Translations under genes and position numbers: made by a program
Assembly (NCBI GenBank): GCA_011390065.1
Contig: JAABTD010000013.1
Span: forward strand, 1 to 39,819
Source: Desulfobacteraceae bacterium
GTDB taxonomy: Bacteria > Desulfobacterota > Desulfobacteria > Desulfobacterales > JAABSP01
DNA: 39,819 bases
Reading direction: 5' to 3'
The notes under the pieces: generated by a model
The model's database searches: none
What the model was told of the DNA's origin: nothing
What the model saw: the letters and a program-made list of their open reading frames with translations, nothing else
Shown here: in pieces, positions 1,980 through 27,220 of the stretch
Layout of the letters: every line of letters starts with the position of its first letter
Numbering within the stretch: position 1 is the stretch's first letter

Positions 1980-4400
1980 TTATGAGATGCAGACTTTCTT
2001 GACCTGGGCCATGTCGGTGAACCCTTTGATTACCTTGGCGACGCCGTCCTGCTTCAGTACGCGCATGCCTTCCCTTATGCACTGTTCCTGGATATCCTTG
2101 ACCCGAGCCTGAGTCTGGACCAGTTTTTTGACCTCATCGCTGCCCAGCAGCAGTTCGTGAATCCCCATCCGACCCCTGTAGCCGGTATTGCGGCATTTTT
2201 CACACCCTTCGGGACGATAGAGGACCATGTCTTTCCGCTCAAGACCGATATCCTCTGCAAAGATCTTTTCTCCGTATTCCCGAACCATGATCTCGTATTC
2301 ATCCTGATCCGGCGTGTAGGGCTGTTTGCAGTCCTTGCAGAGGGTTCGGACCAGCCGCTGGGCAAGGATGCCCAACAGCGCGTCCGCGAAGTTGAAAGGG
2401 TCCATGCCCATGTCCAGCAGTCGGGTAATGCTCTCCGGCGCGCTGTTGGTATGGAGGGTGGAAAAGACCAGATGGCCGGTGAGGGAAGCCTCGATGCCGA
2501 TGGCGGTGGTCTCCTTGTCCCGCATTTCACCCACCATGATGACGTCGGGGTCGGCCCGGAGAAACGACCGCATGGCCGCGGCGAAGTTGAGGCCGATCTT
2601 GGGGTGCATCTGGACCTGGCGCAGCCCCTGTTGAGTGATTTCCACGGGATCTTCGGCCGTCCATATCTTGCGATCCACGGTATTGATGACCTTCAATGCG
2701 GAGTGGAGCGTGGTGGTTTTGCCGGAACCGGTGGGTCCGCAGACAAAGATGATGCCATAGGGCTGCTGGATGATCTCCAGAAAATACTTTTTGTTCCAGT
2801 CGGAAAAACCGAGATTGTCGAAAGGGATCGGTTCCCCGGCAGCGAGAATCCGCATGACGATATCCTCCATCCCGCCCTGGGTCGGAACGGTCGCCACACG
2901 AAGTTCGATGTTCAACCCGCCGTATTTCTTGAAAGGGATTTTTCCATCCTGGGGCTTTCTGCGTTCGGCGATATCCAGTCCGGACATAATCTTGATCCGG
3001 GAGGCGATGGCGTTGCGATAACTGTAAGGGATCGGCATGGGGTAGAGCTGACATGCGCCGTCGATGCGGGTCCGGACTTTGACATCGGCTCTCCCCGGCT
3101 GGGGCTCGATATGAATATCGGAAACGTTCTGGTGGAAAGAATCGATAATGATCTTGTTGACCAACTTCACCACCGCGTTGCTCTCTTCACTGACGAGTTC
3201 TTCTTCCTCTTCTTCGCCCGTCTCGACGTCAACGCCTCTTAGCAGTTCGTCTGAGATGGCGTCGATATCGAAATCCGTTGGTTCCTTCTTCTGTTTTTTC
3301 TCCTCGGTGAAAAGGGTGATAAAGTCGAGGATATCCTCCTTTGTTGCGACCACGAACTCCAGCGGATTATTGGGGAATACGGATTTTACGCCGCCGATTT
3401 TCTGAAAATTTTGGGGATCGTCGATGGCGATGACGATCTTGCCCCCTTCGACCCGAAGCGGGACCCATAGATTGTTCCGCATGAAAGGAACCTTGAGGCC
3501 CTTGATCAGGTTCTTCGGAATGGGCGTGGCATCGCTGTATTCCACCGCGGGCGCCCCATGATATTTTCCCAGCGACTCGACGATGTCTTTTTTCGGGACG
3601 CTGAACTGCTTCATCAGAACATTTTCGACGCTGTCTCTCATCCGCGCCGCTTCATCCTGGGCCTTCTTGAGGTCTTTGGGCGAAATCAAATGTTTCTGGA
3701 GAAGGTAGGTGAATTTACTGTTGGATTGACGCTGGGTCTTCTTGAGGTTATGGAGGCCGATGCCGATGATTTTGGCCAGTTCCTGGGCGGCTTTTTCTTC
3801 CATCTTGGAGAAAGGCCCATCGGCTTTCCGATTGACAAGCTGAATGGCGCCCATGAGATACCGCTGGAAAAAGACAGGCATCGCCATCACCTGCCGGGTG
3901 GTGAACCCGCTTTTAACATCCCAATTCTTATCGAACCTGAGGTCAGGATCGATGTCGGCCAATGCTTTTTCGTCGTAAACATTGGCGATGTTGACGACTT
4001 TCTGCCTGTGGGCGGCATAACCGGCGATGCTGTCAGTCGATACTTTAATTCGGATCTCTTTGATCTCATTGCCGGTTTTATAGCGGGATATCAGTTCCCG
4101 ACGCTCCCCGTCAAGGACGTAGATCGTCATCCTCTCGGCCTCGAACAACTCGACGATCTCATCGATGATGCTGATGAAGATATCGTTCTGGCTTTTGGAA
4201 CTGTAGATTTTACTCGCGATCTTCTGCAGCCGGATTTTGAACTGCATCTCCGGCCGCGGCTGCTGTCGCTTTGCCGCATCCGCCGTTTTCAAGCGCGTGA
4301 CATTGCCCTTCGGCGCATCGGCGCTTTGGGTGTCGGCCTCTTTAACCTGCCGAACTTTAGGCGCTTTTGATCTGACGCTCGTATCGGTATTTCTTAACAT
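1980..4400 (-). CDS. GspE/PilB-type secretion or pilus assembly ATPase with N-terminal GAF domain
   Basis: The 806-residue protein has a charged, low-complexity start (1-65). A GAF domain follows at about 70-215 (FEAERMTIYVLDGERREL, MAMPVFFQRYLMGAIQLVNR). An MshEN/PilB N-domain-like region covers about 230-370, and a complete type II secretion ATPase core fills the rest. Walker A is GPTGSGKT at 555-562. Asp-box and Walker B sequence (FLRADPDVIMVGEMRD), a His box (STLHTN) and two CxxC pairs (CKDC, CEKC) near the C-terminus fit PilB/GspE. Such ATPases power pseudopilus or type IV pilus assembly. The GAF fusion suggests control by a small ligand. No pilus genes are adjacent. A small membrane protein gene lies 59 bases upstream on the same strand. 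Confidence 0.88.
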   Translation of the reverse strand: MLRNTDTSVRSKAPKVRQVKEADTQSADAPKGNVTRLKTADAAKRQQPRPEMQFKIRLQKIASKIYSSKSQNDIFISIIDEIVELFEAERMTIYVLDGERRELISRYKTGNEIKEIRIKVSTDSIAGYAAHRQKVVNIANVYDEKALADIDPDLRFDKNWDVKSGFTTRQVMAMPVFFQRYLMGAIQLVNRKADGPFSKMEEKAAQELAKIIGIGLHNLKKTQRQSNSKFTYLLQKHLISPKDLKKAQDEAARMRDSVENVLMKQFSVPKKDIVESLGKYHGAPAVEYSDATPIPKNLIKGLKVPFMRNNLWVPLRVEGGKIVIAIDDPQNFQKIGGVKSVFPNNPLEFVVATKEDILDFITLFTEEKKQKKEPTDFDIDAISDELLRGVDVETGEEEEEELVSEESNAVVKLVNKIIIDSFHQNVSDIHIEPQPGRADVKVRTRIDGACQLYPMPIPYSYRNAIASRIKIMSGLDIAERRKPQDGKIPFKKYGGLNIELRVATVPTQGGMEDIVMRILAAGEPIPFDNLGFSDWNKKYFLEIIQQPYGIIFVCGPTGSGKTTTLHSALKVINTVDRKIWTAEDPVEITQQGLRQVQMHPKIGLNFAAAMRSFLRADPDVIMVGEMRDKETTAIGIEASLTGHLVFSTLHTNSAPESITRLLDMGMDPFNFADALLGILAQRLVRTLCKDCKQPYTPDQDEYEIMVREYGEKIFAEDIGLERKDMVLYRPEGCEKCRNTGYRGRMGIHELLLGSDEVKKLVQTQARVKDIQEQCIREGMRVLKQDGVAKVIKGFTDMAQVKKVCIS

Positions 4401-15285: not shown

Positions 15286-16359
15286 ATGTCAAACGGAAAA
15301 GACACCGCTGCAGTTGAAGAAACGCCGCTGCGCTTAACTCAGACCGTTGCGGGCGCCGGATGAGCGTCCAAACTGCCGCCAGGGGACCTGGATCGGGCGC
15401 TATGCGGGCTGACATTTCCTACCAACGCCGACGTCATCGTCGGACTCGACCGGGCCGATGATGCAGGGGTTTATAAAATAACGGATGACATCGCCCTCAT
15501 CCAGACCGTTGATTTCTTCACCCCCATTGTGGACGATCCCTACTGGTTCGGGCAAATCGCTGCGGCCAATGCGCTGAGCGACGTCTACGCTATGGGCGGC
15601 GTGCCCAAAACCGCCATGAACCTGGTGGGATTTCCTTTGAAGCACATGGATCTCGCCATCCTGAGACGGATACTGGAGGGAGGGTTGGACAAGATGACCG
15701 AGGCCGGGGTCGTCGTGGTGGGCGGTCACAGCGTGGAAGACAACGAACTGAAATATGGGCTTTCGGTCACCGGATTCGTGCATCCGGACAAGGTGCTGAG
15801 AAAGAGATCGTTGAAGGCGGGGGATCGCCTGATCCTGACCAAACCGATAGGGACAGGGATCATCAACACGGCCATCAAGGGGGGGCTGGCCACTCCGGAG
15901 ATCACCCAATTCGTCACCCGTCTCATGGCGGCCTTGAATCGATCGGCGGCGGAAGCCATGGCCGGGCATCCGGTCCATGCCTGCACCGATGTCACCGGTT
16001 TCGGGCTTCTGGGCCATCTTGCGGAAATGGTCGTCGGCGCCGGGCTGGGTGCGGAGATTGATTCGACGTCTCTCCCGATCATTCCCCATGCGCTGGAATA
16101 TGCCGCCATGGGATTGATCCCAGGAGGGGCTTATAAAAACCGCGAATTCAGGGAAACCATCGTCGCCATTGAGCCCTCGGTGGATCGAGGGGTTCGGGAC
16201 GTGCTTTTCGATCCCCAAACGTCAGGAGGCCTGTTGATCAGCGTGCAGGCCGACCACGCTGATGCTCTTCTATACGACTTACATCGAAAAGGAGCGGCGG
16301 ATTCCGCGATAATCGGAAGAGTCGTTTCCGAACCCTTTGAACAAATACGCGTGATTTAA
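15286..16359 (+). CDS. selD: Selenide, water dikinase SelD, selenocysteine-containing (UGA read-through)
   Basis: The frame runs from ATG 15286 to TAA 16359 with one in-frame TGA at 15361-15363, giving 357 residues with Sec at position 26. The context LTQTVAGAG-Sec-ASKLPPGDLD is the catalytic Cys/Sec segment of SelD, where Sec-containing enzymes are known. Later motifs include GGHSVEDNELKYG (ATP site), ACTDVTGFGLLGHL and DPQTSGGLL. The enzyme makes selenophosphate from selenide and ATP for selenocysteine and selenouridine synthesis. AGGAT lies 8 bases before the ATG. yedF follows 20 bases after the stop. Automatic calling would start it wrongly at 15529 and lose the active site. Confidence 0.93.
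15361..15391 (+). promoter_or_regulatory. Sec UGA codon and SECIS-like hairpin in selD
   Basis: After the TGA (15361-15363), CCAGG (15379-15383) and CCTGG (15387-15391) form a perfect stem with loop GGA. The loop begins 20 bases after the UGA with a G first, which fits the distance and the loop-G rule described for bacterial SECIS elements bound by SelB. Confidence 0.65.
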
Positions 16360-16379
16360 GAGGATTGACAGGAGGACGC

Positions 16380-16973
16380 ATGCAAAAAATCGACGCCCGT
16401 GGCCTGGCCTGCCCGGCCCCGGTTTTACAAACAAAAGCAGCCATCGACGAAGGCGCCGATCTATTGGCGGTCCTTGTGGACAATAAGGCCTCTAAAGAAA
16501 ACGTCTGCCGGTTCCTTGAAACCCAGGGGTTTGAAACGATCGTCGAGAGCTGGGAAACGGATTTTCATGTACATGCAACTCGCGCCGGCGTTGTTCCCCG
16601 GTCGGCTGCCGAATCCCTGTCCCCAGAGAGCGATGGGTCGAAAATCATGGTCATGATTACCACTGATCGCATGGGATTCGGCGACGACGCCCTCGGTATG
16701 AAGCTGATGACCAATTTCATCAAAACGCTCAAGGAGATGGGAGCATCCCTCTGGCGTCTGGTCTTTGTCAACAACGGGGTCAAGCTCGCTGCCGAGGGCG
16801 CCGCCGTTCTGGAGGATCTCAAAACATATGAAGCCGACGGCCTGAAAATCCTCGTTTGCGGCACTTGCCTCGATCATTTCAACCTGCTGGATCAGAAGCG
16901 GGTCGGGGAGACCACCAACATGCTGGACATCGTTACCGCCATGCAGTTGGCCGACAAGGTAATTAACATTTAG
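16380..16973 (+). CDS. yedF: Selenium metabolism protein YedF (TusA-like plus DsrE-like domains)
   Basis: The 197-residue protein begins with a TusA/SirA-like domain containing DARGLACPAPVLQTKAAI (the CPxP site, with Cys as potential sulfur or selenium carrier). A DsrE-like C-terminal domain ends in LVCGTCLDHFNL. YedF-type proteins accompany selD in many selenium-using anaerobes and are thought to help deliver selenium. ATG 16380 was chosen because AGGAGG lies at 16370-16375; an in-frame TTG at 16365 is less likely. The stop overlaps the end of the convergent secreted-protein gene by 4 bases. Confidence 0.9.
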   Translation: MQKIDARGLACPAPVLQTKAAIDEGADLLAVLVDNKASKENVCRFLETQGFETIVESWETDFHVHATRAGVVPRSAAESLSPESDGSKIMVMITTDRMGFGDDALGMKLMTNFIKTLKEMGASLWRLVFVNNGVKLAAEGAAVLEDLKTYEADGLKILVCGTCLDHFNLLDQKRVGETTNMLDIVTAMQLADKVINI

Positions 16974-17842
16974 GGAAACAACACCCATGTGTATTCAAAT
17001 GGCGCTATATTGATGCAACGATTGCTGAGGATGAAGCGGTCGTTGTAAATGGCGTTGTAATTATAACCGGACATCATGGACGTAAAAACAGGCCCGCTGA
17101 AGCTGGGATCAAGGATTTTTTCGTAATACTGATAAGGGCCGCAATAAATATTCAAGGTCTTGGCATAGGTTGTGGGGGATCGAATGTAGAAAACAACCAT
17201 GCCGGGCCAATAATGGCTGTAACACGTCGGGCACGAGGAATAAGAAGACGTGTCCAGGGCCGCATAAGCATTGTCCAAAGATGTGAACTGGCCGTCTTCT
17301 TGCTCCGAGGCGGGGGCGTCCTCTCCGGAAGATGGCGGCGAAATCTTTAATTCTTCTAAAATGGCGTCATCCAAATCCGGCTTTTCATAAAAAAATCGAA
17401 CGGGTAAGGCAGCGGAAACAGCGCCAAGGGTTTCCACCCGAAATCGATAGGCTTTCTTTTCTAAAACATCCTTGGTCTCATTGATTGTAAATATATAATA
17501 ATTCAAGCCTGTTACAACCTTTTCAAGCACCACGTCGCTCCCATCCAGCAACATCACCCGATAAAGTCTCTGGCTGGCTTTGTAATTATCCGGATATGGC
17601 AACGCCTCGCTTTCCACTTCGGCATCCCGCCAGCTGACAGGAAGAAAATAGCCGGAGATCACGCTGTTTTTTTCCGGATAAGAAATTCGGATTCGATTGC
17701 CTTGATCCCCGGCATCCGCCGGATTTCCCCCGGCTCTATCCGCCGCATCGAAGGATGCGCCGCCCACTGCATAGGCGGCGCCGGCCAGGAATAGACCTGA
17801 AATGATGACAGCCCCGATCTTTAATAACGCACTCGTTCTCAT
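16970..17842 (-). CDS. Secreted protein of unknown function under a GEMM riboswitch
   Basis: The 290-residue protein has a clear signal peptide (1-25, KIGAVIISGLFLAGAAYA with AYA cleavage). About 40 residues later comes a beta-rich region (IRISYPEKNSVISGYFLPVSW, YRFRVETLG) like an Ig or fibronectin fold, then an acidic linker near 170-190. The C-terminal domain has four cysteines (SSCPTCYSHYWPG, NIYCGPYQYY, SNRCINIAPF) and many Tyr, suggesting disulfides. I do not recognise the family. It is preceded by a riboswitch and terminator, so production is probably set by cyclic dinucleotide level, as for adhesins, pili or matrix parts. AAGGGGGAAA precedes ATG 17842. Confidence 0.75.
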   Translation of the reverse strand: MRTSALLKIGAVIISGLFLAGAAYAVGGASFDAADRAGGNPADAGDQGNRIRISYPEKNSVISGYFLPVSWRDAEVESEALPYPDNYKASQRLYRVMLLDGSDVVLEKVVTGLNYYIFTINETKDVLEKKAYRFRVETLGAVSAALPVRFFYEKPDLDDAILEELKISPPSSGEDAPASEQEDGQFTSLDNAYAALDTSSYSSCPTCYSHYWPGMVVFYIRSPTTYAKTLNIYCGPYQYYEKILDPSFSGPVFTSMMSGYNYNAIYNDRFILSNRCINIAPFEYTWVLFP

Positions 17843-17900
17843 TGGATTTCCCCCTTTGGATGATATGGTTTTTCATGTTGTCAAAGGGCAGAAGGCGCTA

Positions 17901-17955
17901 CAAAAAACAACGCCTCCGGGCAAGCGAATATCTCACACTGCCCAAAGGCGCTGTT
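17901..17955 (-). terminator. Intrinsic terminator: expression platform of the GEMM riboswitch
   Basis: On the minus strand a 17-bp stem without mismatches (three G-U pairs) forms between 17955-17939 and 17922-17906. It closes a 16-base loop and runs into TTTTTT at 17907-17902. It lies between the riboswitch aptamer and ATG 17842, 59 bases before the gene. This is the arrangement of a transcription-attenuating riboswitch. Confidence 0.85.
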
Positions 17956-17963
17956 TACGCAAC

Positions 17964-18058
17964 GTTCGGCAGCCCGGCGATCATGGCTCAATTAAGAGCT
18001 GTAGACCCGTGGCTTTGCGTCACAGCCTTTCGGCAGTTTTGCCCTTCTACACCGTTAA
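17964..18058 (-). ncRNA. GEMM-I (cyclic-di-GMP-I type) riboswitch aptamer
   Basis: Read on the minus strand, the conserved GEMM blocks occur in order. AAGGGCAAA is at about 18046-18038. A hairpin with arms CTGCC and GGCTG and a GAAA tetraloop is at 18036-18023. GACGCAAAGCCACGGGTCT follows at about 18021-18003. A GCTC/GAGC hairpin is next, and GCCGGGCTGCCG at 17978-17967 is the tetraloop receptor side. The base corresponding to G20 of the Vibrio Vc2 aptamer (middle G of AGGGC, 18043) is G. From memory of that structure this favours cyclic-di-GMP over the cGAMP-selective GEMM-Ib variant. A terminator and the secreted-protein gene follow. Confidence 0.88.
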
Positions 18059-18060
18059 GT

Positions 18061-18338
18061 TTTCGAAGATTAACTATGCAATTTTCATGCTAATCAGCTT
18101 CACTGGATTCAGAAGGAGCTGAATCCGAACCCGGCGACCTGCGCTGACAGATGAGATTGCTTTCTATTTAAACCCGTTAGGCATGAATCCCAGCCAGAAA
18201 AATACGGATGCGGACATGACGGCTTTCCGCCTTCATGGGTCAAGTTAGTTCCTTTTTTTGTCAGCGCTTGAACAATTTTTGACCATCCGACAAAAATTTG
18301 TCAGCCACCAGAACGGGATTCAATATGCGATGCGGATC
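18061..18338. other. Gene-free stretch upstream of the riboswitch, with one 8-bp inverted repeat
   Basis: Together with the riboswitch this is the longest gene-free stretch of the window (17843-18338). GGATTCAG (18105-18112) and CTGAATCC (18119-18126) are perfect inverted arms around AAGGAG, about 50 bases before the aptamer, and could be a regulator site. The promoter of the riboswitch transcript must lie here, but no convincing -35/-10 pair was found. Near 18290-18305 a short palindrome (GACAAAAATTTGTC) follows the barrel gene stop, but without a clear terminator. Confidence 0.4.
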
Positions 18339-19823
18339 TCAGAAGTGAAAAATCAAGGAGGAATAGAGCAGATGCTCTGTTGCGTCCTGGGAAAAATCCG
18401 TATCCACCACCAGGGACCGGCCCACATCGTTGCCGTATCGAAACTGATAGGCGAGGTCAAAAATGACGGGGCCCTTTGCGAAACCGGCGCCGAGGCTGAA
18501 CCCATAATAATCGTCCGGGCTGCCCTGAGCCGGCGCCGGATCATAAAAAAGTCCCCAACGCAGTGGGATCACATAATCGACCGCCGGATCAATGAACAGA
18601 TATTCCATTCCCAACCGGATCTGATGAGTCGGATCGATATCGGAGTCATCAGGGGCTTTGGCCGTTACAGGCGACGTCTTATCGCCCATTTCATCTTCCA
18701 TTTCAAGGTCTTCCCAATGGGTCCGGAAAAAGTCCAGTGAAACCGTCAGGCGATCTGATGTTCGCCAGGCCAGGCCGATGCCGTAGGACATGGGCATTCG
18801 CATCTTTTCATCTGAAGCCGACCGGATGTCCGTAACCTTTTGATCGTCTTCCATAACGGTTGCCGTCCGCTCATGCTCGATATCCGCCGTAAAGGGCGAC
18901 TTGAAAACCATGCCGATGGTCAGTTCATCGGCGACTCGCCATATCGCACCGATATTGAAATTCATTCCCTGGAAAGTATAGTGATCCTTGATCGTTGTCA
19001 GAAAACGGGATTGACCGCTTATGCCGGACGACGCGCTCGTCCAGACCGTCTCCGTCTGCACATCGTTTTTCGATTCCCATTTGCTGTGGGTCAGATCGTC
19101 ATCCCACAGGTTCAATGTAACGCCCAGAGACAGATCCGGGATGATCTGGATGCTGTATGCCAGGCCCAGAGCCGACAGAGATCCGTTCACCCGGTTCCAG
19201 TAGCGGCTGGTGGTTGTCGAGGTGATGGTGTCCAAAACGATGTCTCCGAATTCGATATCCTTTGTGACGGCATCGACAGTTGAAAAATCCCAGCTCCTCG
19301 CAAAATCATATAAGCGCTGATAATTCAAAGAGATAACCATGTTCCGATTGAACAGATTGAAAGGATAGACTGCGCTGAGGTAGTTGATGTCCGATTCCGT
19401 AATGCTTTCCCCGCCGTCCGCTTCGGAATTCAGATGAAACGAATTGTCTTCGATGCGATGGACGCCGCTGTAGACGACGGAAATTTCCGGCGTTCTGAGT
19501 TGCACCAGTCCGCCGGGGTTCCAGGAGGCCGCCGTGGCATCGTCCGCAACGCCGATGAACGCCCCGCCCATGCCGATGGCCCGGGCGCCGGAACCGACCG
19601 GATTGGGCGAGGAGGCGAATTCGAAGCGACCGGATACGATGCCGGCGGGATTTCCCGGCAACTGTGAAGGGATGGCAGGGACTTGGCTGTTTCCGTCCGG
19701 TATGGGCGGCGCATCGAAATTGTCGGGGTTGAAGCCGTCGGGCAACTGAGCAACGGCAGGACTCTGGGCGACGAACCAGAGGATCAGCAGGGTGGCCAAG
19801 AACCTCTCGGGCGCAATTTGCAT
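18339..19823 (-). CDS. FadL/OmpP1-like outer-membrane beta-barrel protein
   Basis: The 494-residue protein has a signal peptide (1-25, LLILWFVAQSPAVA) and a Pro/Asn-rich linker. It then has the family start SPNPVGSGARAIGMGGAFIGVADDATAASWNPGGL, which marks the OmpP1/FadL/PorV type, here split around G residues 70-105. Long alternating beta strands follow to a final LLYSSLIFHF with terminal Phe, the usual signal for outer-membrane insertion. FadL-type barrels take up hydrophobic compounds; PorV-type ones serve secretion. It is the last gene of the CHAT/ECF cluster, 44 bases after the CHAT gene. GGAG precedes ATG 19823. Confidence 0.85.
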   Translation of the reverse strand: MQIAPERFLATLLILWFVAQSPAVAQLPDGFNPDNFDAPPIPDGNSQVPAIPSQLPGNPAGIVSGRFEFASSPNPVGSGARAIGMGGAFIGVADDATAASWNPGGLVQLRTPEISVVYSGVHRIEDNSFHLNSEADGGESITESDINYLSAVYPFNLFNRNMVISLNYQRLYDFARSWDFSTVDAVTKDIEFGDIVLDTITSTTTSRYWNRVNGSLSALGLAYSIQIIPDLSLGVTLNLWDDDLTHSKWESKNDVQTETVWTSASSGISGQSRFLTTIKDHYTFQGMNFNIGAIWRVADELTIGMVFKSPFTADIEHERTATVMEDDQKVTDIRSASDEKMRMPMSYGIGLAWRTSDRLTVSLDFFRTHWEDLEMEDEMGDKTSPVTAKAPDDSDIDPTHQIRLGMEYLFIDPAVDYVIPLRWGLFYDPAPAQGSPDDYYGFSLGAGFAKGPVIFDLAYQFRYGNDVGRSLVVDTDFSQDATEHLLYSSLIFHF

Positions 19824-19867
19824 TCACATCTCCGGCGGTGGTGGTGTCGTTAAGGATCAAGCCAGCT

Positions 19868-21736
19868 TCACGGGGAACCCCCTTTGCTCATCTCATCCGT
19901 CTCATATTTCTGCAATTTTGGCAAAAGGTTTTTGGTCAGGGCCTGTCGCTGCTCCAGGACCGGTCTGCCGTTGTCCAGCTCTTCAAATACCGTTTCCAGT
20001 ATGCGTCGGGTATCCCGTTCCACGAGGCGCATCAGCACCAGGCTCTGTTCGCCGGTATCGTGGGCCTCCAGAAGCAGGATCAGATCCGGCATCAGCAAAC
20101 CGGGGCGAACCCGCTGCTCCGGCGGGGTCATCCGAATCTTTCTCACCAGTTCCGACAAGACGATGTCGAAGGAATCCTGCTCCAGCAGCTTGAACGGACT
20201 CCGGGAGGCGATAATCCGTTCCTGGATAGCGTAAAGGATCATCTTTTCCCTCCCGCCTTTGACCGTCAGGGAATCGAAAACAGCGGCCAGCGTGGGGGAG
20301 GACATCTCCGTCTTTGCGGCAACGGGCGGAAGGTCGTCCGTCAATTCAGACAGGACATCGAAAAGCTGATGGGTCCGTTCCTGTTGCTTTTCAGCCCGAG
20401 CGATCAACAACTTTTGGATCTCCAGTCGGTCGGCGGTTTCCGCACGCACGGACCGGGAGTTCATCCAGTGGTCGATGCGCAACCCGCCCACAACGGCCAA
20501 GCCCAGCGTCGCCAGAATTGCAATGGCCATCAACCCCGTCTTGATCGACTCCCACTTGGTCGGGTTGAACGAATAGTTAAAAAGCGCCCCCCGGGTCAAT
20601 GCCGTCTGACGTTTTGCAGCAGCAATGCTTTCCCCCCTGGGACTATTTTCCGGTTTCCCCTGGCGGAAATAGCCGATGGTCGGATCGCCGTACAAAAGAT
20701 AACTGACCCAGCAGAGGTTGGGCCCGTATTTTTCCGTCAGATTGGCCCGGGCCATCCTGACCGCCTCGCCGGCGGTGCGCCCGGCCCGCAGCAGCTCGTA
20801 GAATTCATGGGCGAAATAACTGCTCGGCTCGTCCATGATCTCCCAGGAGGTTCCCACGTAATGCCGCACACCGGAGCGCAAAAAAGCATTGCCGAGACCG
20901 AAGGAGCTGTTTTTCTCGGTTCCGGTCAACTCCCAGGCTTCTGTTCGGGCCGACTGACAAGCGTTGGAGAAGATCAATGCGGGCATCGACGCGCCGCCCG
21001 CCATGCGGTCGATGTCGGCTGCAGCGAAATGTTTTCGGGCCAGTCGCCATCCGCTGCTGGAAGGGTTGTCGGCATCGTAATCCACATGCCCGGCAAAATG
21101 GACAAAATCGTATTCCTTGAGCCGTTCCTTTATCCCCTCCAGGGTCACATCGCCATCCAGGACAGGATCGATAATCGTGTCCGACCCGTTCATCCGGGCC
21201 ATATCCTGGAAAACCTTCAGGCCCTCTGCTTCGGCGATGTCCAGGTCACCTCTGGGATTGGCGATGATCCACATTTTCAGCGGCCGGGACAAATCTCTCG
21301 GGCCGGCTCTGGCGACCTCCTGGCGTGTTTTGACCAGCCGCCCCATGCTGAATCGCTCGCAGAGGAAGTCCTGCTCGAGACAGATCAGTTCCCACGGAAT
21401 GTGGACCAGATGATCATCCAGCCGCAGTATGAGATAACCAGCGGTGGTGTTCCGCAGCGCTTCCTTGATGGTTCGGGTCAGCAGTTCGTCGCCGAGCATC
21501 CGGCCGACGGCTTTCAGTTTTTCCACTGCATCGGGTCCGCCGCCGCCGTTGCGGCTGGTCTGGTTCAAGGCCTCCATCATTTCCCGGCATCGCGTCTGGA
21601 TACGATCAATGGGGACCGGGAGATCCTCATAACGCCAGATCACGTCTCCAGGTTCATAAAGCCCGATTTTCAAATGATGTTTCTCCCGGGCCACTTCCAG
21701 AAAAACGGCATCATTTTTCATGGAAACCTTCTTCAT
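19868..21736 (-). CDS. Transmembrane CHAT-domain (caspase-like) protein with periplasmic C-terminal domain
   Basis: The 622-residue protein has a CHAT protease domain in its first 370 residues. The His motif is VHFAGHVDYD (H217), the Cys motif is LIFSNACQSART (C260), and VGTSWEIMDEPSSYFAHEFYE follows, so both catalytic residues are present. One membrane helix at about 399-420 (LMAIAILATLGLAVVGGL) implies a cytoplasmic protease and an external domain of about 200 residues. That domain (SPTLAAVFDSLTVKGGREKM, PFKLLEQDSFD, LVLMRLVERDTRRILETVFE) reads like a CsgG/LpoB-type fold. ATG 21736 lies inside the preceding zinc-finger gene; ATG 21721 is an alternative start. A role in cleaving the anti-sigma-like protein encoded next to it is inference. 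Confidence 0.85.
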   Translation of the reverse strand: MKKVSMKNDAVFLEVAREKHHLKIGLYEPGDVIWRYEDLPVPIDRIQTRCREMMEALNQTSRNGGGGPDAVEKLKAVGRMLGDELLTRTIKEALRNTTAGYLILRLDDHLVHIPWELICLEQDFLCERFSMGRLVKTRQEVARAGPRDLSRPLKMWIIANPRGDLDIAEAEGLKVFQDMARMNGSDTIIDPVLDGDVTLEGIKERLKEYDFVHFAGHVDYDADNPSSSGWRLARKHFAAADIDRMAGGASMPALIFSNACQSARTEAWELTGTEKNSSFGLGNAFLRSGVRHYVGTSWEIMDEPSSYFAHEFYELLRAGRTAGEAVRMARANLTEKYGPNLCWVSYLLYGDPTIGYFRQGKPENSPRGESIAAAKRQTALTRGALFNYSFNPTKWESIKTGLMAIAILATLGLAVVGGLRIDHWMNSRSVRAETADRLEIQKLLIARAEKQQERTHQLFDVLSELTDDLPPVAAKTEMSSPTLAAVFDSLTVKGGREKMILYAIQERIIASRSPFKLLEQDSFDIVLSELVRKIRMTPPEQRVRPGLLMPDLILLLEAHDTGEQSLVLMRLVERDTRRILETVFEELDNGRPVLEQRQALTKNLLPKLQKYETDEMSKGGSP

Positions 21737-22340
21737 CTATATGGAACCGGTACGTCCCTTTTTCATCGGCGTTCTGTTCAACGACGAGATGATATGTCCC
21801 GAACCCCAGGTTGTCGAAGACTTCATAGTCCCGGGTCGCATACCGGGCCTGGAGGCCGCCCCCTTCCCTTGCCAGGGTCAGGCAGACGTTCTGGGCGTTT
21901 TTCCGTCCTGCCGTCACCTTCACAGCCATGAAAGCGGCATCCAACCGGGATTTCTGGACATACATCTCCGTCTGCAGCCGCCCCATCCGCCGCGTCACCA
22001 GCACTGCGGCCCGGGCGGGTTCAGCGGAAACCGACGACCGGACGGCCGAGGCTGCGAGCCCCATGAACCAAACCGGGGGCGTCAACTCCGAAACCCACCC
22101 GTGAAACGAATCGATCTTCTTCTTCACGCTTTCGATGACGACAGTCACCACATCCCCGGCGGCGGGAATTTCATATGCGGCCATATCCATCTCGCTCAAC
22201 ACCATCTTTGAAACTGCCAGCGTTTCCATGCAGCGATCGCACGCCGCCAGATGATCGGCCGCCTCAGACCGCTCGATTTCGGTCAACTGGTCGTCGACAT
22301 ATCCGGCAATCGCAGCCGCATCCAAACAGGGTGAATTCAT
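21711..22340 (-). CDS. Zinc-finger anti-sigma-factor-like protein
   Basis: The 209-residue protein begins with an anti-sigma zinc-binding (ZAS) segment. MNSPCLDAAAIAGYVDDQL is followed by EAADHLAACDRCMETL, giving H-x3-C-x2-C, as in anti-sigma factors of ECF sigmas. No clear membrane helix is seen, although 115-130 is mildly hydrophobic. The C-terminal 90 residues are beta-rich (AFMAVKVTAGRKNAQNVCLTL, GFGTYHLVVEQ) and unrecognised. ATG 22340 was chosen for AAGGAG 9 bases upstream. The 3' end overlaps the start of the CHAT gene by up to 26 bases. The sigma factor two genes upstream is its probable partner. Confidence 0.75.
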   Translation of the reverse strand: MNSPCLDAAAIAGYVDDQLTEIERSEAADHLAACDRCMETLAVSKMVLSEMDMAAYEIPAAGDVVTVVIESVKKKIDSFHGWVSELTPPVWFMGLAASAVRSSVSAEPARAAVLVTRRMGRLQTEMYVQKSRLDAAFMAVKVTAGRKNAQNVCLTLAREGGGLQARYATRDYEVFDNLGFGTYHLVVEQNADEKGTYRFHIDEEGFHEK

Positions 22341-22359
22341 GCTAGGCGCTCCTTTCGAC

Positions 22360-22578
22360 CTAAGACGTAAACGATTTAAATTCGCAGAGGTTTTTCTCAA
22401 TTCTGGACAATTTTGCGTCTACGGCTTCGGGGGCGCTGCCGGTCACCAGAGCGATCTCCTCAGCGGACAGTCCGAAGGCGCGCATTCGGATGAGAATGCG
22501 ATCCATCTCGGGAATGACCTGAAGCACCGGGTCGTCCAAAAGCCCGTCTTTGACAATGGAAAAATCGACATCATTCAT
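22360..22578 (-). CDS. Free-standing sigma-region-4-like small protein
   Basis: The 72-residue protein aligns without gaps to the last 50-60 residues of the ECF sigma factor encoded just upstream. VLQVIPEMDRILIRMRAFGL matches ALQVVSQTDRIILRLHRFGM, and KLSRIEKNLCEF matches RISRIKKTLSDF. I count about 20 identities over 50 positions. It therefore contains only the helix-turn-helix region 4, which reads the -35 element and is a common contact of anti-sigma factors. GAGGAGGG before ATG 22578 is a strong ribosome site. It might act as a decoy for the anti-sigma protein or a competitor at promoters; this is inference. Confidence 0.75.
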   Translation of the reverse strand: MNDVDFSIVKDGLLDDPVLQVIPEMDRILIRMRAFGLSAEEIALVTGSAPEAVDAKLSRIEKNLCEFKSFTS

Positions 22579-22658
22579 ATGTTGCCCTCCTCTGTATCTA
22601 CTATACACAAAGGAATTCGGTTTCTATCAAAAAAAAATCGGATCGAAGCGGAGGGGAA

Positions 22659-23228
22659 TTACCGATAATCGATAAAGTCGCTCAAGGTTTTCTTTATTCG
22701 GCTGATTCGGTTGTGGATGGCGGCTTCCGTGCTGTCGACGATGACCGCGATATCTTTCGCCGGCATACCGAAGCGGTGAAGCCGCAAGATGATGCGGTCG
22801 GTCTGGGAGACAACCTGCAGGGCGGTGTTGAGGGCGACCTTGCCGAGAACGTCGGATTCCAGATTAGCCGGATCTTTCTGGAACTCATCCAGATCCATCC
22901 GGCCCTTCTGTCCCATGAAGCTGTCGAATCCGCGTTTTCTCAAAAAATTGAGGGTGGCGTGGGTGGCGATCACCACGATCCAACGGGCCAGACTGTGGCC
23001 CTCCCCTTCTTTATAGAGGCGCAACCGGCGACGATTGTCGTCAAGGAGCTGCAAAAACACCTCCTGGCAGACCTCCTCCAGATGATCTTGAACAAGGGGT
23101 GCGCCCTTGAGGCGGAACGTTCGTCGAACTGTAGCGCAGACCAGCTTCCAATAGGCTTCCACAAGCTTGTCGCATCGGTTTTTTTTGATGCACTGGTTGA
23201 GGATCTTCCGCTCTTCGGATCGGGTCAT
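22659..23228 (-). CDS. ECF-type RNA polymerase sigma factor
   Basis: The 189-residue protein has sigma-70 region 2 (about 25-100: LVCATVRRTFRLKG, LEEVCQEVFLQLLDDNRRRL, SLARWIVVIATHATLNFLRK). Region 4 covers about 130-185 (TDRIILRLHRFGMPAKDIAV, AIHNRISRIKKTLSDF). There is no region 1 or 3, as in ECF sigmas. Its ATG overlaps the stop of the lipoprotein gene (ATGA at 23228-23225), so its translation is likely coupled to that gene. The downstream order sigma, sigma-4-like, zinc-finger protein, CHAT protease points to a regulated signalling cassette. Confidence 0.9.
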   Translation of the reverse strand: MTRSEERKILNQCIKKNRCDKLVEAYWKLVCATVRRTFRLKGAPLVQDHLEEVCQEVFLQLLDDNRRRLRLYKEGEGHSLARWIVVIATHATLNFLRKRGFDSFMGQKGRMDLDEFQKDPANLESDVLGKVALNTALQVVSQTDRIILRLHRFGMPAKDIAVIVDSTEAAIHNRISRIKKTLSDFIDYR

Positions 23229-25225
23229 CGGGCGACAACCCTGTCCGTCGGTCGAACAGCAGCGGCTGTCCCGGCATTCATAACGGCGGTGAAAACATTC
23301 CCCGTTGCGCCGCCCGTCACCATCGCATCTCCAATAATCCGGGCGTCTCTGCCCATGGCCTGATCTCCGGTCTCAGTGAATCGATAGACAATGAGCGGCC
23401 AATCCGGCGGCAACGTTTTCTTTCCGGTTCCCTGATCCGAAAGGGCGATGTGGACGCGATTCTCCGAAACATCCACGATTTCGGCGGCAAGGAGGGGAAA
23501 ATTTCGCAGAAATTTTTCCGACAAGCGTCGGCCCATGGCCGCCAGATCCTCCCTGCCCGGAGAGGGGGCGTAAACATCTCCCACCGCCAGGGTCTCACGG
23601 GTCTCGATGTTGACCATCCTGGCGGCCGCCTCGATCCCGGTCCGGGTCTCATGGACGACGCCCAGCAATACCGCATGGGGGGAAGCCCCGTGAGCGGTCG
23701 CATCGGTTGTCAGGCCCTGCCGGTCCAGCAGGCGTTGGAGGTCTTCCGAAACAGCGACGCGAAACCGCCGAGGTGCGAGGAGGCCGGCCAGCATATCGTG
23801 CTGGAACCGAATCCCTTTCGGATTATCTTCTGAAAATTCAAACGGATGAATGGAAATCCCGTACCGGTGCCGCAGCTGAAAAGCCTCGGGGATCTTGCGA
23901 ATGATGCGGACCTTCTTTTCAACGTTTCGACCCTCAGCGTCCGCTGCCGTGATCGTCACCGGGTTTTCTCCCGGTTCCAGGCGCAAAAACGCATTAAACG
24001 AGATCAGCCGTCCCTGGTGAAAGGGAACTGCCCGGCCGTTGACGCTCAGATGGCCGAGGTCCGCTTCGCTCCGCACTTCGACGTCCAGCCGGAGGGTCTC
24101 GGAGAAGATGATCTGCGGATCGGAAACCCCCTTTATGTCGATCCTCAAAGGCGTCTTTCCGATGCGGGCAATTCGAGACAGATCGACGGGCTCCCTGCCG
24201 TCGGTCATGACCCTGTTTTCCCCTCTCCACGCCAACCACCCGGCGGCAGACTCGCCGGATAATCCGCCTTTCTCCACACGGAACCGGGTTTCATTGCCGA
24301 GGCGGTCCTCCGTGGTCAGAAGGGCCGTCATGGAATCAAGATCCGATGTGAAAAAAGCCGGCGTCCCGCTGGAGAACGGCGCCGCTTGCCCGTTGATTTG
24401 GAGCGACGCAACCCCGGCGGGGTCCAGCAGGCTGCCGGAAATCGTCTTTCCGGGGACAAACCGGTCGATGGCGATCATGGGCCCGGTTCGGTCTACCTGC
24501 AATTGTAATCGTTGCCGGGTCTCGCCCCCCATCAGGTTCCGGACGCGCACCCTGATCTCGCAGCGTCCTTCCGCCAGATACAGGTCCTCGGAAAAGGCAA
24601 CCTCCGGTTCAGAAGCCTCCATAAAAACCTGCATGTCATCAATAAAGATATCGGAGATGAATTGTCTTTCGTCCACGGCCACCCCGGCGATGCGGATTGG
24701 ATCATCCCGGGTCCATACGACCTTCGCCGGATCAGACGTCGGAAGGGTCAGCGTCAGGCGGGGTTTTCCGGGAGCTTGGCCGGTCTGCCGGAGCAACCGG
24801 GTGCGCGTTTCGTCCAGGTAAAACCGCGCTTTTTCCGATGGGTATTGGGCCAGAGACCATTCCAGCTCGGCTTTTGCCGCCGGGTAATCGCCTTCCAGGT
24901 AATGGATCAGCCCTTTTTCCCGGTGGGGAAAATAATCGACGAAGTGCATTCCAACGGTCCGGGCCCGACGCTGATCCGTCCCCCGGAGCCGGATGGCCTC
25001 CTCAAGGTCCGCCAGCGCGGCCTGGCAACAGCCGCCTTCCATGCAGGAGAGCGCCCGCTCGTAATAATCGTACCACCGACCGGTGAAGTTTCCCCTTGCC
25101 TGGCAGTAAGGGACGCCGTCCCTGACGCAAACCCGTTGCGGGACGGCTCATCCCCAGACCAAAAGCAGGCTGAAAATGGTCAGCAGAAAAAAAATCCCGC
25201 CTTTTCGGCGCAAAGGGTCAGACAT
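23225..25225 (-). CDS. Lipoprotein with Ig-like and CsgG-like regions; UGA at the lipobox Cys (possible selenocysteine)
   Basis: From ATG 25225 (AAGGA 8 bases upstream) the frame encodes MSDPLRRKGGIFFLLTIF, then SLLLVWG, then TGA at 25148-25150, then 640 more codons to 23225. The TGA falls exactly where a lipobox (L-V-W-G-C) needs its cysteine. After it come VCVRDGVPYC, TPR-like helices (RALSCMEGGCCQAALADLEE, GLIHYLEGDYPAAKAELEWS), two Ig-like regions (VDRTGPMIAIDRF; LRLEPGENPVTITAADA) and a C-terminal CsgG/FlgO-like domain (GISIHPFEFSEDN to the end). A SECIS-like hairpin follows the TGA. Either Sec is inserted or the gene carries a nonsense change. A shorter product from ATG 25042 would lack the signal. 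The ECF sigma gene overlaps its stop. Confidence 0.75.
25115..25150 (-). promoter_or_regulatory. In-frame UGA plus candidate bacterial SECIS hairpin in the lipoprotein gene
   Basis: On the minus strand TGA (25150-25148) is followed at once by GCCGTCCC (25147-25140), pairing perfectly with GGGACGGC (25122-25115). Inside it GCAA (25139-25136) pairs with TTGC (25130-25127) around loop CGGGT, with GTCA unpaired on one side. The apical loop starts 12 bases after the UGA and has G at position two, close to the described bacterial SECIS rules. A competing smaller hairpin (GGGAC-GGC-GTCCC) is possible. Confidence 0.5.
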
Positions 25226-26553: not shown

Positions 26554-27015
26554 TCAAGCGGGCGATCGGTTCAACCTTGGTCGGAAGGACAATTGACGGG
26601 CCGCCTGATGTTTGATGCGCTGGTAAAAACCGTGCTCCCGGCGGTGCTCTTTGTGCAGAGCATTGAGCACCTGGCTGGCCAGCAACTGGTTTTCAGGCGA
26701 GGGATCGATATATTCGAGGCCGATTTCAAAGCTGCTGCTTTCAACGTCCCAGCGATACCAGCGAATCTTGACGCCGGCCTGGAACAATCCTTTGGGAGAA
26801 AACGCCTTCAGCGTCAGCCGCGGCTTGTGATGGGCGGAGATCAACAACCGGTCGTTGACGAACATTCGGTCGGCTTGAACCAGAGCCCCTTTTCCGGAAA
26901 AATTGGTAATCGTCACCGCCATTCGGGTCTCATAATCCGGGTAACGGATCTCCAACACAGCGTCCCAGACAACGGGATATCGTTCGATCTGCCGGCGGTT
27001 CTTCTGGAAAAACAT
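26554..27015 (-). CDS. PilZ-domain protein
   Basis: The protein of about 153 residues starts MFFQKNRRQIERYPVVWDAV, with a possible RxxxR motif (RRQIER), then ITNFSGKGALVQADRMF, the N-x-S-x-x-G motif of PilZ domains. These bind cyclic-di-GMP. Strand-rich sequence continues to IGLEYIDPSPENQLLASQVL, followed by a basic tail. ATG 27015 is preferred because GGGGAGG lies just upstream; a frame to 27084 is open but begins with unrelated sequence. With the GEMM riboswitch and a second PilZ gene this supports active cyclic-di-GMP signalling in the organism. Confidence 0.75.
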   Translation of the reverse strand: MFFQKNRRQIERYPVVWDAVLEIRYPDYETRMAVTITNFSGKGALVQADRMFVNDRLLISAHHKPRLTLKAFSPKGLFQAGVKIRWYRWDVESSSFEIGLEYIDPSPENQLLASQVLNALHKEHRREHGFYQRIKHQAARQLSFRPRLNRSPA

Positions 27016-27220
27016 GGGCCCTCCCCAATGCCTGAAGTCTGGTGGATCCGGGTCTATTTCCGCATGGTTTTCTTTATCCCACATCCGGGCGGCGGCTGCA
27101 ATGGGGCGGCGGATGTAGTTTCCGGTAGGATTTCTCGACTCTTTGCCGCTTTCCCCTTGCCCCTGAACCCGGTTTATGTCAGTATACCGACCATTTTAAA
27201 GAAAAAAAGGAAATATTACC

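Follow-up and report, generated by a model that had tools for sequence, protein, structure and literature searches.

The window, which is the whole stretch of 39,819 nucleotides that was analyzed, carries on its reverse strand a gene for a protein of 290 amino acids (P0001) that starts with ATG at 17842, and ahead of this gene lies a leader in which a predicted c-di-GMP riboswitch aptamer, a terminator hairpin with its U tract and a Shine-Dalgarno sequence follow one another. The coordinates of these features are collected in Table 1, where T and H denote the 5' and 3' arms of the terminator, respectively.

Table 1. Features of the riboswitch leader and its target gene in the window
Feature	Position	Strand	Details
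Class I c-di-GMP riboswitch aptamer (predicted)	17965..18053	-	RF01051, 81.4 bits, E 1.1e-14, whole model covered (1-87 of 87)
P2 hairpin, closed by a GAAA loop; predicted ligand-free partner of T	18018..18040	-	Duplex with T -24.5 kcal/mol, 0/500 shuffled arms as good; 15 pairs in the ensemble before H is made
Aptamer 3' strand CUGCCGAACGUUG; second, less stable candidate partner of T	17960..17972	-	Duplex with T -20.2 kcal/mol, p 0.004
Terminator hairpin	17905..17956	-	23 pairs, one bulge; T 17933-17956, H 17905-17927
Terminator U tract	17902..17907	-	Six U, from sequence
Shine-Dalgarno sequence AAAGGGGG	17850..17857	-	From sequence
Target gene P0001	16970..17842	-	290 aa; N terminus that looks by eye like a Sec signal peptide; C-terminal domain rich in Tyr

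An earlier note on this DNA had recognized a GEMM-I aptamer from its conserved blocks, and the search against RF01051 (Rfam 15, gathering cut-off 35 bits) agreed with it, giving a score far above the cut-off over the full length of the model and the sole match in the whole window. In the RF01051 alignment all the conserved bases of pocket and junctions are found, namely G20, GACGCAAAG in J2/3 and CUGCCGAA at the 3' end (Vc2 numbering); the GAAA loop of P2 is present, and the loop-receptor region of P3 is one base off the consensus, with CUAC in place of CUAA. Judged from its sequence, the leader is thus a clear member of the class I c-di-GMP riboswitch family. The leader as a whole (17843-18060) folds with a z score of -4.73, with 0 of 200 shuffles as stable, and the terminator hairpin within it, which begins after a gap of 8 nt and overlaps no aptamer strand, reaches -35.2 kcal/mol with a z score of -9.11 (0 of 200 shuffles as good). 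The terminator that the note had placed between aptamer and gene was hence found again, although the 17-bp stem given there was an undercount. A hairpin hiding the Shine-Dalgarno sequence in the read-through mRNA was no better than shuffles (z scores of -0.90 and 0.08), and a search for a promoter gave a sigma-54-like site at 18077-18092 with 2 mismatches, but 4 such matches occur in the window in comparison to 5.55 expected.

The target had been described as a secreted, Cys- and Tyr-rich protein that could not be named. The secretion signal is apparent by eye, and no match to P0001 was found in Pfam, NCBIfam, PDB sequences, phage records or viral contigs, so that the protein remains as nameless as before; the region between the signal peptide and the C-terminal domain is likewise without known relatives in Pfam, NCBIfam and PDB. 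In the mature protein, the start of which is a guess, Tyr amounts to 8.7%, in keeping with a Tyr-rich composition, while Cys-rich was an overstatement because only 4 of the 264 mature residues are Cys. These four Cys all fall within the last 92 residues and are conserved in the C-terminal domain of the two full-length sequences and one partial sequence, which are all three that were found. The structure prediction proposed in the note had a mean pLDDT of 43 and gave no usable model; a Foldseek search with it returned nothing at E<=0.001, and some Ig/fibronectin-like matches were set aside. The further suggestion of a matrix, surface or electron-transfer component gained no support, since searches for a family, a fold or a solved structure that would match P0001 found none.

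Relatives of P0001 were found in one genome besides its own (G000), namely G002, a Desulfobacteraceae MAG from another genus of the same family, which encodes a full-length orthologue of 287 aa with 41% identity and, where a contig ends, a fragment of the C-terminal part. The gene was found in 2 of 58 related genomes, its own included, and in 1 of 395 genomes of the phylum, which is itself; within the order, 17 of 389 genomes gave matches at E<=0.1, with only G000 and G002 below E 0.001. The weak matches in the other 15 genomes (E 0.008 to 0.1) were taken as chance; the two that were inspected (L013 and L017) are a transporter-like membrane protein, and several contain stops. When the C-terminal 80 residues were used as query on 96 genomes, matches were obtained in G000, G002 and G093, the last at E 0.005 and in the same region as L017. 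The genome listed in the same genus as the window (G001) has neither the target gene nor an RF01051 match. The leader of the G002 orthologue (L007) contains an RF01051 aptamer of 71.2 bits that is near-identical to that of the window from UAACGGUGUAGAAGGGC on, with CUAA as its P3 receptor, and this is followed at similar spacing by a hairpin with a z score of -4.87, an interrupted U tract (UUGUUGUUU) and a Shine-Dalgarno sequence of the same kind, CAAAGGGGG, before the start. As aptamer and hairpin also precede the sole full-length relative, which belongs to another genus, the arrangement in the window is therefore not a product of chance.

Upstream of the target, genes for TPR/glucodextranase-B-like, ECF sigma, zf-HC2 anti-sigma, CHAT and PorV/FadL-like proteins stand in a row (18339-25042, reverse strand), in an order that is the same in G002 (41% to 62% identity) and partly kept in other genomes of the order; the row is possibly a regulated CHAT module. 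The CHAT gene is more widespread, with matches at E<=1e-40 in 25 of 194 genomes. The idea that the target belongs to a conserved CHAT operon was rejected: among 10 CHAT loci, one of which (G003) has its contig end 167 nt past the PorV gene, the riboswitch and the target occur only at that of G002, and they therefore look like a separate unit. A link to the T9SS through the PorV-like neighbour was also dropped, since PorV_fam scored 62.1 bits against a cut-off of 90 and the SprA search had no match even in controls. On the other side of the target, a SelD gene at 15378-16359 of the forward strand (TIGR00476, 302.6 bits from 15529 on) seems, as judged by eye, to extend upstream through an in-frame TGA near 15378, and its product is therefore probably a selenoprotein. 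YedF (217.2 bits) lies 3' of SelD at 16365-16973, and its stop overlaps that of the target, the two genes being convergent. A PilZ-like domain at 26554-27084 of the reverse strand, about 9 kb from the riboswitch, scored 22.1 bits, just under the Pfam cut-off of 22.5.

Two known layouts of such switches are described in PMC9262584. In Cd1, the OFF switch of the Clostridioides difficile flagellar operon, a T+H terminator coexists with the aptamer and the antiterminator consists of T paired with an aptamer strand, whereas in pilM, a cGAMP-sensing ON switch of Geobacter metallireducens, the terminator is built with the aptamer's own strand. With a class I aptamer and a downstream, separate T+H terminator, the window has the arrangement of Cd1 (OFF) and not that of pilM (ON), and its aptamer 3' strand does not lie inside the terminator stem as it would in the pilM type. 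The likeness to Cd1 is not complete: there the aptamer-stabilizing strand A is the one described as pairing with T (PMC9262584), while in the window T is better matched by P2, in duplex energy as well as in the swap test, and the target of Cd1 is flagella in comparison to an orphan secreted protein here. The pilM aptamer is closely homologous to that of the window and also acts on transcription, but its terminator, according to PMC9262584, contains the aptamer A strand, which that of the window does not, and base 20 of the window aptamer is G.

Among 80 leaders that were classified, 30 had a separate terminator, 3 were pilM-like, 1 had a far terminator and 46 had no recognised one; the corresponding numbers for 60 further leaders were 36, 5, 1 and 18. 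This classification misses L007, the U tract of which is interrupted, and L007 was added by hand to the duplex and swap tests. The ON layout, in which the 3' half of the aptamer contains the 5' arm of the terminator, was seen in two leaders of the window's own genome (L004 and L005) and one of G002 (L029). L004 and L005 belong to RF03167, the c-di-GMP-I-GGC riboswitches of the same Rfam clan, while the window and L007, both RF01051, have the separate OFF-type terminator. Four RF03167 switches are present in the own genome. By eye, three of these precede proteins that look secreted, and three of the four have C-G as their first P2 pair, unlike the G-C of the window; L004 and L005, in which a terminator was found, differ from the window in layout. 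With a separate terminator in the window and terminators inside the aptamer in L004, L005 and L029, both layouts appear to coexist in the family.

Four class I c-di-GMP aptamers of 71.5 to 80.5 bits stand head to tail at L157 (G041:C102, 1939-2295, reverse strand), with gaps of 5, 5 and 7 nt that leave no space for a terminator between them. Some 29 nt further downstream follows an ORF (732-1910) that looks by eye like a secreted lipase; the bases at the Vc2 G20 position are A, G, G and A from 5' to 3', and the array may possibly sense both cGAMP and c-di-GMP. The same locus has two inverted Acido-Lenti-1 RNA matches (3247-3293, forward, 51.3 bits; 3397-3443, reverse, 50.9 bits) about 100 nt apart. 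In G002, L031 and L032 (both 1501-1585) match RF01051 with 58.3 and 48.0 bits and have U at the Vc2 G20 position, which would be a possible ligand variant or decay; they precede near-identical secreted N-termini, dockerin-like by eye, that are fused to different C-terminal parts.

The complementarity of T to aptamer strands is well supported in the window (Table 1) and in the orthologue, where the P2:T duplex reaches -17.3 kcal/mol (0 of 500 shuffles as good) and that of the 3' strand -11.8 kcal/mol (p 0.172). Ensemble folding of the growing window RNA placed T on P2 from +28 to +48 nt past the aptamer, with about 15 pairs at +32 nt, and released it after about +52. In the orthologue P2 and the 3' strand kept T occupied until about +40, and from +48 it was paired with H. 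The 3' strand had been the first idea for the main partner of T, and was given up as P2 was better in both ensemble folding and duplex energies. Across leaders, T holds the full complement of the last five bases of its own aptamer in 14 of 30 separate leaders in comparison to 1.19 expected from shuffled T, and in 11 of 27 in comparison to 1.08 when the own and G002 leaders are left out; in the duplex test of the 3' strand on 27 leaders, 4 had p<0.05 and 544 of 5000 swaps were as low. The P2:T duplex was significant in 18 of 31 leaders in comparison to 5 of 31 for the 3' strand, and in 14 in comparison to 8 of the 36 separate leaders fetched afterwards.

In the swap test, made on 67 leaders with separate terminators, T paired better with its own P2 than with swapped partners (z score of -4.0, 1 of 5000 swaps as low), the signal was weaker for the 3' strand (142 of 5000), and no own-partner preference was found for the 5' strand (2825 of 5000) or the two halves of P3 (4518 and 1382 of 5000). 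With one leader for each of the 16 groups of similar P2, 219 of 1800 swaps were as low, which is not significant, and some of the signal may therefore be due to common descent of the leaders. The 5' strand paired with T better than shuffles in 29 of the 67 leaders though it has no own-partner preference, so complementarity against shuffles alone is a weak criterion, and in ensemble folding no more than 3 of 30 leaders had pairing of T with the aptamer above that of shuffles (p<=0.05), and for the window p was 0.08. The evidence for P2 as a general partner of T across leaders is thus suggestive. At equilibrium the full terminator always wins in ensemble folding, so a model in which the switch is OFF needs kinetics.

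The ligand is likely c-di-GMP. In the RF01051 alignment, the base just 5' of the first P2 pair, at the position of Vc2 G20, is G, as the earlier note had reported in favour of c-di-GMP over cGAMP, and the first P2 pair is G-C, as in Vc2. The orthologue also has G at this position, as do 75 of the 80 leaders examined, in comparison to A in 2, with 3 unparsed by the pattern; the own genome has 19 GGDEF and 2 EAL matches. That the leader would sense 3',3'-cGAMP, or both dinucleotides, we consider very unlikely, even though related switches of the same phylum sense cGAMP (PMC6456294, PMC8835794) and the two kinds of pocket differ at only a few bases. The cGAMP type, according to PMC6274999, has A14 just before P2, and the GEMM-I change modelled there with cGAMP bound is G20A. 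The A expected of a GEMM-Ib switch is absent from both the window and the orthologue.

With c-di-GMP as the ligand, we consider it fairly probable, from the arrangement of the leader, that the window holds a transcriptional class I riboswitch that acts as an OFF switch. Without ligand, the emerging T would pair with aptamer strands, for the most part with P2, which it would invade by way of the GAAA loop. This pairing would keep T from H until RNA polymerase has passed, and the secreted protein would be produced. When ligand is bound, the docked aptamer would retain P2 and the 3' strand, T would be free, and the T:H hairpin would form and stop transcription. As aptamer strands would hold T in the ligand-free RNA, the switch would be OFF with ligand whichever of P2 and the 3' strand is the partner. 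The opposite direction, in which the ligand-bound aptamer prevents termination as in pilM, is unlikely in our judgement: the Geobacter cGAMP switches turn genes on, as stated in PMC6456294, and L004, L005 and L029 show that layout, but the window terminator uses no aptamer strand and can coexist with the bound aptamer, and the pairing that the aptamer 3' strand can also form with RNA just past the U tract arises only after termination at that site has been decided. Less probable still is a decayed or constitutive leader with the terminator uncoupled from the aptamer. With such stability the terminator may form in any case, that of the orthologue has a poor U tract, and the promoter search gave no site above expectation; against this, aptamer, spacing, hairpin and complementarity have been kept across two genera with targets only 41% identical. 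The OFF reading would extend to an order-wide platform, with the window as an example, if T generally nucleates on the P2 GAAA loop and unzips P2 as the antiterminator, which would make loop-receptor docking rather than P1 the switching element; we regard this extension as doubtful.

RF01051 matches were found in 135 of 194 genomes of the order, and PMC12452182 describes c-di-GMP switches as enriched in the phylum Thermodesulfobacteriota, while PMC11124144 reports a single one in another sulfate reducer; a literature search on c-di-GMP riboswitches of Desulfobacterota found no paper. The riboswitch family itself is already known, and what is new is that the target is an orphan and that the switch is predicted to be OFF. 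Under the OFF model P0001 would be produced when c-di-GMP is low, hence by motile or dispersing cells and not by sessile ones, and the layout agrees less well with a matrix protein that is produced when c-di-GMP is high. A protein family without known relatives is thereby tied to the c-di-GMP network, with an expression pattern that can be tested. The invasion of P2, if true, would be a second way of coupling the same aptamer to termination. Taken with the ON layouts in the same genomes, the results suggest that within a single bacterial family this aptamer clan serves both to switch on some secreted proteins and to switch off others, in each case at the RNA level.
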